Source: Cupriavidus sp. IDO
GTDB lineage: Bacteria; Pseudomonadota; Gammaproteobacteria; Burkholderiales; Burkholderiaceae
DNA length: 64,000 bases
Assembly: GCF_000812465.1 (NCBI RefSeq)
Contig: NZ_JWMA01000029.1
Span: forward strand, 1 to 64,000
Reading direction: 5' to 3'
Position 1 is the stretch's first letter. Every line of letters starts with the position of its first letter. The translations under genes were made by a program, and so were the position numbers. This document shows, in pieces, positions 1 through 31,090 of this stretch. The notes under the pieces were generated by a model. It saw only the letters and a program-made list of their open reading frames with translations, was not told the origin of the DNA and ran no database searches.

Positions 1-335
1 TCCAGGGGCTTCCTCCGCGGCCCTTCATAGTATCTCAGTGAAGCAGAACGTCAGCTTTGTTCCCGTTTGAGCAGGAATGAGCAAGTCTGACGGAACGGTT
101 TGACCTTGCGGCAACGACAACTTATATTGCCACGCACTATTGGTGTCTGATCCGCGTGTTGGAGGGATGCGCCAGCCACAAGGCGCGGCACCATGGCATG
201 AACCGGGCGGCCTGCCGGCCGTACCGAAACGGGGCAACCGCGCATCGACGGCGTGCGCGTGCGAAATGCACGCGCACGCCGTCGATGCGCTTTCCGGGAC
301 CATCGCGTCCCTATCGCTCCGTCAGGGGGATTGCC
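1..335. other. Non-coding leader region
   Basis: No convincing gene is seen in these 335 bases. They hold the 5' leader of the cupin-like gene that starts at 336, and the strong perfect hairpin at 240-290. A purine-rich GGGGA at about 326-330 serves as the ribosome binding site of that gene. Confidence 0.5.
240..290. repeat. Perfect 23-bp hairpin with 5-nt loop
   Basis: Bases 240-262 are the exact reverse complement of 268-290, with the loop GAAAT at 263-267. The stem is very GC-rich and ends 45 bases before the start of the downstream gene. The bases after it are not a clear U-tract, so it is a weak candidate for an intrinsic terminator. It may instead be a leader structure, an mRNA stabiliser or a protein-binding palindrome. 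Confidence 0.8.
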
Positions 336-26935: not shown

Positions 26936-28015
26936 TCAGTTGCCGCTGCCGCTCACCAGCCGGCGGGCCTTGACGGCCTCGGCCAGCGTTTCAAGCACCT
27001 TCACCGAATCTTCCCAGCCGATGCACGCATCGGTGACGGACTGGCCGTAGGTCAGGTTCTCCACCGGCGTGCCCTGGACGTGGTCCTGGCGGCCGGCAAT
27101 GAGGTGCGATTCCACCATCACGCCCACGATGCGCTCGTCGCCGGCGGCCATCTGGCGGCCGATGTCTTCGCACACGGGGATCTGGTTCTCGTGCTTCTTG
27201 CTGCTGTTGGCGTGCGAGGCATCGATCATCAGCCGTGCCGCCAGGCCGGATTTCGCGATGGCCTCGCAGGCTTCCTGCACGCTGGCGGCGTCATAGTTCG
27301 GCGCCTTGCCGCCGCGCAGGATGATGTGGCAGTCCTCGTTGCCGGAGGTGGACACGATGGCGGAATGGCCGCCCTTGGTGACCGACAGGAAATGGTGGGG
27401 CTGCGACGCTGCCTTGATCGCATCGACGGCGATCTTCACGTTGCCGTCGGTGCCGTTCTTGAAGCCGACCGGGCACGACAGTCCCGACGCCAGCTCGCGG
27501 TGCACCTGCGACTCGGTCGTGCGCGCGCCGATCGCGCCCCAGCTCACCAGGTCGGCGATGTACTGCGGGCTGATCATGTCGAGGTACTCGGTGCCGGTGG
27601 GCACGCCCATTTCGCTGATGTTCAGCAGCAGCTCGCGCGCGGTGCGCAGGCCATCGTTGATCTTGAAGCTGCCATCCATGTACGGGTCGTTGATCAGGCC
27701 CTTCCAGCCCACCGTGGTGCGCGGCTTCTCGAAGTAGACGCGCATGACGACTTCCAGCTCGTTGGCAAAGCGGTCGCGCTGGACCTTGAGCAGCTTGGCG
27801 TATTCGAGGGCGGCGCGGGTGTCGTGGATCGAGCACGGTCCGATGATGACGATCAGGCGGTCATCCATGCCGTGCAGGATGCGGTGCATGGCCTGGCGCG
27901 CGCCGTAGATCACGTCCGAAGCCTTTTCGGAGCAGGCGAATTCGCGGATCAGGTGCGCCGGCGGCAGCAGTTCCTTGAGTTCGCGAATGCGCAGGTCGTC
28001 GGTGTTCTTCAGCAT
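26936..28015 (-). CDS. aroG: 3-deoxy-7-phosphoheptulonate (DAHP) synthase, AroG type
   Basis: A 359-residue type I-alpha DAHP synthase that condenses phosphoenolpyruvate and erythrose 4-phosphate, the first step of the shikimate pathway. IIGPCSIHD (about residue 60), VVMRVYFEKPRTTVGWKGLINDP, the metal-binding region around EYLDMISPQYIADLVSWGAIGART, GFKNGTDG and MIDASHANSSKKH are diagnostic. CGGAG precedes the ATG. The 5' leader holds a Phe/Tyr-rich leader peptide and an intrinsic terminator 65 bases before the start, so expression is probably controlled by attenuation in response to charged tRNA-Phe or tRNA-Tyr. Confidence 0.95.
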   Translation of the reverse strand: MLKNTDDLRIRELKELLPPAHLIREFACSEKASDVIYGARQAMHRILHGMDDRLIVIIGPCSIHDTRAALEYAKLLKVQRDRFANELEVVMRVYFEKPRTTVGWKGLINDPYMDGSFKINDGLRTARELLLNISEMGVPTGTEYLDMISPQYIADLVSWGAIGARTTESQVHRELASGLSCPVGFKNGTDGNVKIAVDAIKAASQPHHFLSVTKGGHSAIVSTSGNEDCHIILRGGKAPNYDAASVQEACEAIAKSGLAARLMIDASHANSSKKHENQIPVCEDIGRQMAAGDERIVGVMVESHLIAGRQDHVQGTPVENLTYGQSVTDACIGWEDSVKVLETLAEAVKARRLVSGSGN

Positions 28016-28079
28016 GATGGCTCCGGGTCTTTTGTGAGGTCGTGAGAGTCGGGGATCGGGTACGGAAACAATCGGATAT

Positions 28080-28156
28080 AAAAAAACCGCCAGGCTTGCT
28101 GGCGGTTTTTTTTGTATTCGGGGCGCTTACAGCCGTCCCTCTCTATCCGCCAGCGG
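28080..28156 (-). promoter_or_regulatory. aroG transcription attenuator (antiterminator/terminator)
   Basis: On the minus strand the sequence CCGCCAG (28099-28105) pairs with CTGGCGG (28087-28093) and is followed by seven T residues, forming a terminator 65 bases before aroG. The leader-peptide codons for Pro-Leu-Ala contain GCTGGCGG (28147-28154), which is exactly complementary to the terminator 5' arm (28098-28105). The two stems are mutually exclusive, which is the classic layout of ribosome-mediated attenuation. Confidence 0.8.
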
Positions 28157-28198
28157 TGTGAGATCGCTAAAAAAGTAAAAGTAAAACTTAGCGGACAT
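28127..28198 (-). CDS. Putative aroG leader peptide, 23 aa, Phe/Tyr-rich
   Basis: The minus-strand frame reads MSAKFYFYFFSDLTPLADREGRL and stops at 28127-28129; I give it in pieces: MSAK, then FYFYFF, then SDLTPLADREGRL. Six aromatic codons in a row (TTT TAC TTT TAC TTT TTT) precede the segment that can form the antiterminator. Ribosome stalling there at low charged tRNA-Phe or tRNA-Tyr would favour read-through into aroG. No good ribosome binding site is visible before the ATG. A longer overlapping frame whose stop falls 8 bases inside the leader could couple translation, which is speculative. Confidence 0.72.
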   Translation of the reverse strand: MSAKFYFYFFSDLTPLADREGRL

Positions 28199-28498
28199 GG
28201 CGGAGAAAGGCGTTGGCTGAGGTCAGCTTTGATCGATTTCGTTTCGAGGCGCGGGATTTATGCTGCGCTGCTTGACATAAAGGCAGAAAATTGCGCGCCC
28301 ATTGCAAAAAATTCGGGGTGTGTCCATTGCTGGCCGCACGGCGAAGCATCTTTATAGCGCCTTTCGTGGGCGTTGGCAAGTGCCGCGAGGGAGCTGGCGC
28401 CTCGCCGTCCCGGTGTGCGTGTACGCAGTTTTATTGCGCCCGGGGCAGTTCGCGCCGCCTATATTGGAATTGGCGGGGAGCGCCACGGAGGTGGAATC
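28199..28498. other. Divergent promoter region of aroG and methyltransferase
   Basis: No supported gene. The promoter of the aroG leader transcript should be here on the minus strand and that of the methyltransferase on the plus strand. I cannot assign -35 and -10 elements with confidence; TTGACA at about 28272-28277 on the plus strand has no matching -10 at the usual distance. Confidence 0.35.
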
Positions 28499-29554
28499 AT
28501 GGCAGTCGACGAAGGGAGGCTGAACGCCTTCGTGGAGAAGTTCGTCCACGATATCGGCGCTGTGATGCACGCTGCCACCGTGGTCGTGGGCGATGAGCTC
28601 GGCCTGTACAAGGCACTGGCCGAGAAGCCGATGACAGCCGAGGTGCTGGCCCAGAAGACGCACACCGACGTGCGCTACCTGCGCGAATGGCTGTCGGCCC
28701 AGGCGGCCAGCGGTTACGTGGACTATGACGCCGCCAGCGAACGGTTCAGCCTCAACGAGGAGCAGGCTTTCGCGCTGGCGCAGGAGGGCAGCCCCGCCTT
28801 TATTCCGGGCGCGTTCCAGATCGCCGTGGCGCAGTTCAGGGCGATTCCGAAGATGATCGACATCTTCCGCAATGGCCGCGGACTCGGCTGGCATGAACAC
28901 GATCCTGCATTATTCCACGGCACCGAGCGGTTCTTCAGGCCAGCTTACGCCGCGCATCTGGTGACGGAGTGGATTCCGGCGCTCGACGGCATGGAGGCGC
29001 GACTGAGAGCCGGCGCCAGCGTGGCGGACGTGGGCTGCGGCCATGGCGCGTCGACCATCATCATGGCGCAGGCGTATCCGGCTTCGCGCTTTACCGGCTT
29101 TGACTACCACGAGCCGTCGATCCGCTATGCGACCGAGGCAGCCCGGCGTGCCGGCGTGTCGGGCCACGTGCGCTTCGAAGTGGCGGCCGCCAAGGATTTC
29201 GGCGGCAAGGACTACGACCTGGTGGCGGTCTTCGATTGCCTGCATGACATGGGCGATCCCGCCGGTGCCGCGGCGCATGTGCGAGAGACGCTGCGTGCCG
29301 ATGGTGCGTGGATGATTGTCGAGCCGTTCGCCAACGACAAGCTGGAAGACAACCTCAATCCGGTGGGAAGGGTGTTCTATTCGGCCTCGACCTTTATCTG
29401 CACGCCGGCCTCGCGCTCGCAGGAAGTCGGGCTTTGCCTGGGGGCGCAGGCCGGGGAAACGCGCATGCGCGCAGTGGTGGAGCGGGGCGGCTTTTCGCAG
29501 TTCCGGCGCGTGGCGCAGACACCGTTCAACCTGATCTACGAAGCCAGGCCGTAA
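28499..29554 (+). CDS. Class I SAM-dependent methyltransferase with N-terminal winged-helix domain
   Basis: A 351-residue protein. Residues about 1-90 form a winged-helix/dimerisation domain (LYKALAEKPMTAEVLAQKTHTD, YLREWLSAQAASGYVDY). The Rossmann methyltransferase domain has motif I VADVGCGHGAST (about residue 176), the acidic loop GFDYHEPSIRYA, and motif IV LVAVFDCLHDMGDP. The layout resembles small-molecule O-methyltransferases and the methyltransferase-fold regulators; the substrate is unknown. GGAGGTGGA precedes ATG 28499. It stands alone between aroG and tldD. Confidence 0.85.
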   Translation: MAVDEGRLNAFVEKFVHDIGAVMHAATVVVGDELGLYKALAEKPMTAEVLAQKTHTDVRYLREWLSAQAASGYVDYDAASERFSLNEEQAFALAQEGSPAFIPGAFQIAVAQFRAIPKMIDIFRNGRGLGWHEHDPALFHGTERFFRPAYAAHLVTEWIPALDGMEARLRAGASVADVGCGHGASTIIMAQAYPASRFTGFDYHEPSIRYATEAARRAGVSGHVRFEVAAAKDFGGKDYDLVAVFDCLHDMGDPAGAAAHVRETLRADGAWMIVEPFANDKLEDNLNPVGRVFYSASTFICTPASRSQEVGLCLGAQAGETRMRAVVERGGFSQFRRVAQTPFNLIYEARP

Positions 29555-29629: not shown

Positions 29630-31090
29630 TCAAGCCGTGCCGCCCACCGTCATGTTCTCGATGCGCAGCGTCGGCTGGCCCACGCCCACCGGCACGCTCT
29701 GGCCTTCCTTGCCGCATACGCCCACCCCCGAATCCAGGCGCATGTCGTTGCCGATCATGGTGACGTCCTTGAGCGATTCCGGGCCGTTGCCGACCAGCGT
29801 GGCGCCCTTGACCGGGTAGGTGATCTTGCCGTCCTCGATCATGTACGCCTCGCTCGCGGAGAACACGAACTTGCCGTTGGTGATGTCGACCTGGCCGCCG
29901 CCGAAGTTGACCGCATACAGGCCGCGCTTGACGCTGGCGATGATCTCCTGCGGATCGCGGTCGCCATTGAGCATGTAGGTGTTGGTCATGCGCGGCATCG
30001 GCAGGGCGGCGTAGCTTTCGCGGCGCGCGTTGCCGGTGACCGGCAGCTTCATCAGGCGCGCGTTGAGCGTGTCCTGCATGTAGCCGCGCAGGATGCCGTC
30101 CTCGATCAGCGTGGTGCACTGGGTCGGGTTGCCTTCGTCATCCAGGTTGAGCGAGCCGCGGCGGTTGGCCAACGTGCCGTCGTCCACCACGGTCACGCCC
30201 CTGGCGGCCACGCGCTCGCCCATGCGGCCGGCGAAGGCCGACGAGCCCTTGCGGTTGAAGTCGCCCTCCAGGCCGTGGCCGACGGCTTCGTGCAGCAGCA
30301 CGCCGGGCCAGCCCGGGCCGAGCACCACGGTCATGGCGCCGGCCGGAGCGGGGCGGGCATCGAGGTTGACCAGTGCCGACGAGACCGCCTCGTCCACGTA
30401 CTTCTGCAGCAGTTCGTCGGTGAAATAGCCGTAGGCATAGCGGCCGCCGCCACCTGACGAACCGATCTCGCGGCGTCCGCCCTGCTCGGCAATCACCGTG
30501 ACCGACACGCGCACCAGCGGACGCACGTCGGCGGCGATCACGCCGTCGCTGCGCGCCACCAGCACCACGTCGTATTCGCCGGCCAGGCCTGCCATCACCT
30601 GGACCACGCGCGGGTCCTTGGCGCGGGCCATGCGCTCGATGCGCTCGAGCAGGGCAACCTTGTCGGCCGCGTCCATCGAGTCGAGCGGATCGTTCGGCGT
30701 GTAGAGATTGCGTCCGGTCTGCGAGGCCAGTTCGCCGGCTACCTTGATGCGGCCGTTGCCGGCGCGCCCGATCGTGCGCGTGGCCGCGGCGGCCTGCGAC
30801 AGCGCCGCCAGGCTGATGTCGTCCGAGTAGGCGAATGCAGTCTTGTCGCCCGACACCGCGCGCACACCTACGCCCTGGTCGATGCTGAAGCTGCCCGACT
30901 TGACGATGCCTTCTTCCAGGCTCCAGGCCTCGTTGCGGGTGTACTGGAAATACAGGTCCGCGTAGTCGACCTTGTGCGTGAAGATGTCGGCCAGCACGCG
31001 CTGCAGCTTGACTTCGTCAAGGCCATACGGCGCCAGCAGCAGTTGCTGCGCGGTGGCCAGGTTGCGGATTCCGAGATCGCCGACGTTCAT
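29630..31090 (-). CDS. tldD: Metalloprotease TldD
   Basis: A 486-residue zinc protease of the TldD/PmbA family. The zinc motif [11 protein letters not shown] (HExxxH) is near residue 257, and [61 protein letters not shown] and [13 protein letters not shown] are family blocks, each longer block cited only by its start. TldD works with TldE/PmbA to process microcin precursors and to degrade antitoxins such as CcdA. The partner pmbA is not in the window. A Nit-family amidase gene lies about 100 bases upstream on the same strand and yhdP is upstream of that, the usual beta/gammaproteobacterial order. Confidence 0.93.

Follow-up and report, generated by a model that had tools for sequence, protein, structure and literature searches.

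The aroR-aroF attenuator of Corynebacterium glutamicum, reportedly described by Neshat et al. in 2014, is among the closest known relatives in design of the element analysed here. Its leader aroR is described as containing Phe-Tyr-Phe, and limitation of Phe raised transcription, while Tyr availability had no effect (PMC11802643, PMC4046766). Attenuation operates at pheA, pheST and trp of E. coli, whose DAHP synthase genes are repressed (PMC11802643; for aroG PMC11878033). Leader ORFs before shikimate-pathway genes have also been predicted, namely uORFC-13-1 with Phe in front of aroF in Acholeplasma (PMC8632094) and, from a survey of 2019, two shikimate-gene uORFs containing F and Y (PMC6429828). 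TrpR regulons were reported from eight gammaproteobacterial lineages and TyrR regulons from six, or seven in the table (PMC5343134). Regulators of the DAHP synthase step, which sets the carbon flow into Phe, Tyr, Trp and all chorismate products, are best described in the gammaproteobacteria. In the thr and ilv attenuators of E. coli and Salmonella, several different regulatory amino acids are represented in one leader. No aroG attenuator in betaproteobacteria was found in the accessible parts of the open literature; Vitreschak et al. 2004 or Panina et al. 2001 may have predicted one. The available main text of a Burkholderia cenocepacia start-site paper contained no mention of aroG, DAHP, attenuation or a leader peptide (PMC4603805).

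We analysed a stretch of 64,000 nucleotides from Cupriavidus sp. IDO (contig NZ_JWMA01000029.1, positions 1 to 64,000; hereafter the window), in which a first-pass annotation had proposed an attenuator in front of the DAHP synthase gene aroG. Like aroR-aroF, in which ribosome stalling raises transcription, this locus has an aromatic leader peptide before a DAHP synthase gene; C. glutamicum, however, is an actinobacterium with a Phe-Tyr-Phe triplet, whereas the window has six aromatic codons, and the likeness is one of published description. E. coli pheA (with pheL) and pheST share with the window a leader with Phe codons and, as we propose for aroG, transcription set by charged tRNA (PMC11802643). 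Again by description, those two systems control the Phe branch or a tRNA synthetase, whereas the element of the window precedes the common entry enzyme. The thr and ilv attenuators share the multi-amino-acid leader, but differ in the amino acids and the genes. Both uORFC-13-1 and the two F/Y uORFs of the 2019 survey resemble the window as predicted leader ORFs before a shikimate-pathway gene, the former also with an apparent terminator; unlike the window, uORFC-13-1 belongs to another phylum, and its description gives it an RBS and one or more Phe (PMC8632094; for the survey PMC6429828).

Architecture of the aroG leader region

The leader ORF was read on the minus strand at 28198-28127 as 23 codons, MSAKFYFYFFSDLTPLADREGRL followed by a stop codon, with the control codons TTT TAC TTT TAC TTT TTT at 28186-28169 encoding Phe Tyr Phe Tyr Phe Phe. 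The frame of the first-pass annotation was thereby confirmed at its place, and, as in other attenuators, the ORF was rich in codons for the end products. Searching the 7.93-Mb genome for six consecutive Phe/Tyr codons, (TWY)x6, gave a single site, which was the leader itself, and the reversed-pattern control gave none. Five Phe/Tyr codons in a row were commonplace, with 6 genome sites vs 12 in the control.

An intrinsic terminator was located between the leader and the first structural gene, as is typical of attenuators. Its hairpin, CCGCCAG/CTGGCGG at 28105-28087, was formed on the minus strand by region 3 (CCGCCAGC, 28105-28098), the 5' arm that is also used by the antiterminator, and region 4 (CTGGCGG, 28093-28087), the 3' arm, and was followed by a run of seven T at 28086-28080. 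The position of this terminator before the DAHP synthase gene had been given correctly by the annotation, and the ATG of aroG (28015) lay 64 bases beyond the T-run. Region 2 (GCTGGCGG, 28154-28147, minus strand), the 5' arm of the antiterminator, was identified by sequence reading and pairing counts. It was the exact complement of region 3, in agreement with the perfect pairing claimed earlier between the Pro-Leu-Ala codons (28147-28154) and the terminator 5' arm. Regions 2 and 4 are competing partners of region 3, and the antiterminator would exclude the terminator. A further element, the putative protector region 1 (CCTTTCTCCGCC, 28199-28210, minus strand), was found just 5' of the leader ATG and could pair in folds with GGCGGATAGAGAGG (28151-28138). 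The RNA of 28210-28075 had a folding z score of -3.84 against 200 shuffles, of which one was as low.

A generic promoter and terminator scan of 27950-28560 found neither a promoter nor a terminator. The scanner accepts a -10 box only if its sixth position is T and therefore missed the promoter described below, whose box ends in A; it also wants a T-run that starts after the stem and missed the terminator, whose Ts seem to be paired with an upstream A-run. A 2013 survey noted that Rfam then had only the His, Leu, Thr and Trp leaders (PMC3766115). In our search, none of the Rfam amino acid leader families was matched at the gathering score, with Thr_leader reaching 24.1 bits (gathering 55) and Leu_leader 20 (50) in the window, and 11 relatives gave no match. 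The gene presumed to be regulated, aroG (28015-26936, minus strand), was named a class I DAHP synthase by resemblance, and its ATG was preceded by GGAG.

Conservation among named relatives and in the genus

Named relatives were collected by a scan of genome contigs, from which the best 80 of 588 aroG loci were kept, nearly all from genera of the Burkholderiaceae or Oxalobacteraceae; the window aroG was 78-95% identical to these best 80. In all 80 of these best loci, a short ORF that starts with ATG and contains 5-7 F/Y/W within seven residues lay at most 450 nt upstream, so the aromatic codons were kept in relatives as the first-pass annotation had required. The leader read MSAKFYFYFFSDL... 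in part of Cupriavidus, MSAKFYFYFFWHL... in other Cupriavidus as well as in several Burkholderia and Caballeronia, MSFAKFFYFYFWHL... in Ralstonia and MSFARAYFFFYFSYSS... in Collimonas. Within the first 20 residues, Phe and Tyr occurred in 80 and Trp in 55 of the 80 leaders (best 80 of 588). When the criterion was made stricter, demanding an ATG ORF with at least four F/Y/W in seven residues and a terminator-like hairpin 35-90 nt after its stop, 79 of the 80 upstream regions (same best 80) passed vs 1/80 in antisense. The sole named failure, L051, had a frameshifted ORF that continues through the terminator.

The run was conserved as codons. FYFYF[FY] was spelled in 14 distinct ways at the DNA level, with the first and second codon positions fixed, save position 2 of codon 6 (Phe/Tyr), and the third position variable in all six codons. 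In three relatives (L052, L058 and L073), a small indel after the aromatic run left the run in frame and the RNA of region 2 intact, but the Pro-Leu-Ala peptide was lost. These frameshifts separate the coding constraint from the RNA constraint, which indicates that the aromatic run is preserved at the codon level and the sequence following it at the RNA level. In L015, a genus relative, the run read FHFYFYWHL. In Cupriavidus leaders (L033-L048), codon 11 or 12 differed between species, some having FYFYFFWHL and others FYFYFFSDL or GDL. As read from these sequences, the gain or loss of this Trp codon between species is a natural test of Trp sensing.

With a covariance model built from 36 leaders, each of 40 genus genomes gave a full-length match (E 6.4e-21 or better); one of them (G013) contained a second, shorter match (E 1.2e-11), and the remaining matches were weak (E 0.001 to 0.009) and covered mostly the terminator half. 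In seven genomes, a second copy of the gene was inspected beside a leader-bearing copy, and it was without a leader in 7/7 cases (L178, L177, L190, L195, L196, L201 and L209), including the second DAHP synthase gene of the window's own genome (L178).

The element is not a chance arrangement. A low-complexity U-rich stretch beside the ordinary terminator of an upstream gene could in principle look similar, and the terminator half alone did resemble other terminators in these genomes (weak matches over query 127-163 and weak partial model matches). This explanation is nevertheless hardly credible, being already contradicted by the conservation in 40/40 genus genomes, the antisense controls and the uniqueness of the codon run. 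The gene context also argues against it. The next long upstream ORF on the minus strand (29630-31090), which by eye we take to be tldD-like, ends at 29630, about 1.4 kb from the leader. The space between this gene and aroG holds a long plus-strand ORF (28499-29554), divergent from the leader and presumably, by its resemblance by eye, a SAM-dependent methyltransferase.

Distribution in the order and the class

To cover the order, 120 genomes were sampled, of which 92 had an AroG match of E 1e-60 or better, at 120 places in all. The upstream regions of 100 of these places were analysed, leaving out the window's own aroG and 19 others. The strict criterion picked out 27/100 upstream regions vs 0/100 in antisense, corresponding to 27 of 84 genomes and 13 of 35 families; none of the sampled members of the other 22 families had a leader. 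The order leader peptides were highly divergent, as in MSQRFYFFFYFWSYLSHRRAK, MTRRFFFFFYYFPCLLADGTG and MLRTAPYFFWFWYPTLLAAGRK, and the aromatic run and the following terminator were common to all. Phe was found within the first 20 residues of all 27 order leaders, Tyr in 23 and Trp in 16. With the covariance model, the 120 order genomes gave 28 matches of E 5.3e-5 or better, seven of which were training sequences of the model, and all 28 lay 31-145 bases upstream of the AroG match on the same strand. Another 17 weaker matches (E 2e-4 to 1e-2) covered mostly the terminator half, and by eye none was at an AroG place; given the strict filters of the search, weak copies may have gone unnoticed.

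The terminator should yield a separate short transcript, and a terminated RNA or the leader peptide could, alongside attenuation or in its place, have a trans-acting role as a small RNA or small protein, for which peTrpL of Sinorhizobium is a precedent (PMC7298713). We regard this as very improbable for the aroG leader. The peptide past the run and most of the RNA outside regions 2-4 vary between families, a pattern with which a role in one clade would still be compatible, and the frameshifted relatives retain the run and the helix but lose the rest of the peptide.

In two small order genomes of 2.2 and 2.0 Mb (L115 in G122 and L126 in G076), aroG was located about 35-60 bases after the end of a tldD-like gene (by eye, ...VGGTA stop) and the attenuator was missing, apparently lost in the course of genome reduction. 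Outside the order, the strict criterion was satisfied by 1 of 60 upstream regions of the class (L218). In two further loci outside the order (L262 and L271), short ORFs preceding DAHP synthase ended in the aromatic runs SFYYYFS and KFYFYYYFSA, with no G+C-rich terminator detected; these are possibly independent leaders of another type.

Conservation of the competing helices

Both helices were kept in an alignment of 36 leaders, which were chosen among loci having a leader and aligned with MAFFT without the GGCG/CCGYC anchor. Pairing between regions 2 and 3 was maintained in 98.6% of cells, vs 13-61% in slid controls, and pairing between regions 3 and 4 in 99.7%. Two pairs were changed on both sides in each helix, in 3 cells for 2:3 and in 9 cells for 3:4. 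The covariation score was matched by 0/500 shuffled controls for either helix, but the number of pairs changed on both sides was matched by 15/500 shuffles for 2:3 and 121/500 for 3:4. A-U/G-C exchange occurred at two positions of the terminator among 53 distinct triples, in which the invariance of the core is by construction because regions 2 and 3 were located there by the GGCG and CCGYC patterns. Helix covariation is modest, and the core five pairs hardly vary. In line with the earlier expectation for the two stems, both helices were retained, with a few compensatory changes.

In the divergent order loci, the complementarity between the sequence after the run and the terminator arm exceeded at least 95 of 100 shuffles in 15/27 cases, and in the other 12/27 it was equalled by six or more of 100. 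The same test was passed by 18 of 19 named loci, picked for diversity from the 80. Further counts were made on a set of 130 loci, consisting of the window, 80 named loci (best 80 of 588), 27 order loci and 22 genus relatives; L015 (FHFYFY) was dropped. An element like region 1 was found in 19/39 Cupriavidus/Ralstonia, 11/55 Burkholderia-group, 0/10 Oxalobacteraceae and 1/26 other loci, or 31 of 130, and region 1 is therefore not universal. In the free leader RNA of the window, region 2 was paired upstream with probability 1.00, also with a long 5' end; the mean of this upstream pairing over all loci was 0.49. The parts of the element, their conservation and their spacing are properties of the sequences themselves.

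Ribosome position and folding

The assumed ribosome footprint reached from 14 nt upstream to 16 nt downstream of the first base of the P-site codon. With this footprint, stalls at codons 5-10 of the window leader would leave region 2 free, and region 2 would be covered at codons 13-23. Across the 130 loci, 910 of 942 aromatic codons preceded the first codon at which region 2 is covered, compared with half of the leader codons on average; this order is favoured by the selection itself, as leaders were preselected for aromatic density and region 2 was sought at least 30 nt into the ORF.

When pairing across the ribosome was allowed, the predicted antiterminator probability in the window was 1.00 with A-site codons 2-5, 0.19 at codon 6 and 0.00 at codons 7-22, and region 2 went back to region 1 for stalls at codons 7-12. 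At the stop codon the probability was 1.00 again, the opposite of the model's expectation. A second fold, restricted to the RNA downstream of the ribosome, was designed after this result, which had supported the model less. In it, the probability of 2:3 pairing was above 0.8 at 846 of 905 aromatic stall positions; this held for all aromatic stall positions in 110 of 130 loci and for at least one in 127. A ribosome at the stop codon covered region 2 in 62/130 loci and failed to do so in 68/130, the window included.

Promoter and leader start codon

A sigma70-like promoter, TTGCCA-N17-TATAAA, was identified by pattern match at 28379-28351 on the minus strand, 152 nt before the leader ATG, and the transcript start is guessed to be near 28344. 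A transcript from this promoter-like site would include the leader. The pattern TTGnCA-16..18-TATAAn was sought in 129 loci, two of which had too little upstream sequence. It was present in 30/36 Cupriavidus/Ralstonia loci at 103-180 nt before the leader ATG, with a variable spacer sequence, and in 45/55 Burkholderia-group loci at 34-69 nt. No such pattern was found in 10 Oxalobacteraceae and 26 other order loci (36/36 outside Burkholderiaceae without it) or in 127 antisense controls. The gap between promoter and ATG, 103-180 nt in Cupriavidus and mostly 37 nt in the Burkholderia kin, corresponded to about 115 extra bases of 5' leader.

The first-pass annotation had cautioned that no clear Shine-Dalgarno (SD) site precedes the leader ATG. 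This was correct and general: an SD-like tetramer was present before the leader ATG in 3/130 loci, which makes the missing SD a conserved property. Among the remaining ATGs of these regions, downstream ones included, 152 of 689 were preceded by an SD-like site; such sites were thus rarer at the leader ATG than elsewhere, as if avoided.

The leader might accordingly be too poorly translated for tRNA sensing; the terminator would then restrain aroG at a constant level or in step with the translation rate, and the run would mostly report general translation. The scarcity of SD-like sites at leader ATGs compared with aroG ATGs, where they were present in 77/77 cases (in 3 of the 80 named loci, no ATG lay close to the match), is in line with this idea, as is the position of the window leader start within a stable 5' stem. 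It is improbable all the same, for a general translation sensor would have no need of aromatic codons, the F/Y/W run is kept across 13 order families while the remaining peptide turns over, and changes within the run are almost only synonymous.

Discussion

The element in front of aroG is very probably a ribosome-mediated transcription attenuator of the pheA/trp kind, presumably multivalent for aromatic tRNAs. The layout proposed by the first-pass annotation is supported by the aromatic codons, the conservation of both helices and the promoter-like site upstream of the leader. From this arrangement we infer how the leader would be transcribed and translated, where the ribosome would stall, when read-through would occur and which tRNAs would be relevant. 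Transcription would begin upstream of the leader. With ample charged Phe-tRNA and Tyr-tRNA, the ribosome would traverse FYFYFF and cover region 2, regions 3 and 4 would form the terminator, and aroG would be off. Without a ribosome, region 1 would pair with region 2, again leaving regions 3 and 4 to form the terminator. If a charged aromatic tRNA were scarce, the ribosome would stall on the run with region 2 free and region 1 kept apart; regions 2 and 3 would then pair first, and RNA polymerase would continue into aroG. Judged by this design, the attenuator most likely turns aroG on when charged aromatic tRNAs run short. Tyr may be sensed in addition to Phe, as the first-pass annotation suggested from the mixed run; in aroR-aroF, the closest precedent with experiments, limitation of Phe has an effect and Tyr has none.

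It is also conceivable, although we lean slightly against it, that one and the same leader responds, in the manner of an OR gate, to Phe, Tyr and, in many relatives though not in the window's own leader, Trp tRNA, that any one shortage would open aroG, and that this logic is spread over much of the order. If so, one RNA would do the work of the three isoenzymes and two repressors of E. coli, lineages with and without the Trp codon (FYFYFFWHL vs FYFYFFSDL in Cupriavidus) would be set apart by a single input, and SD-less initiation would set the gain.

The idea of an attenuated DAHP synthase gene has a precedent in aroF of Corynebacterium. New relative to the literature searched are the betaproteobacterial member (13/35 families), the leaders with three aromatic amino acids and a start codon that almost never has an SD. 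The element is in all likelihood a well-conserved attenuator with a known mechanism at a new address. The natural leaders with and without W and the natural frameshifts offer clear comparisons, and the attenuator could be used to engineer the production of aromatics in Cupriavidus necator. As a conserved attenuator without an Rfam family at the gathering score, it would help to explain how DAHP synthase is adjusted in Cupriavidus, Burkholderia, Ralstonia and their kin.
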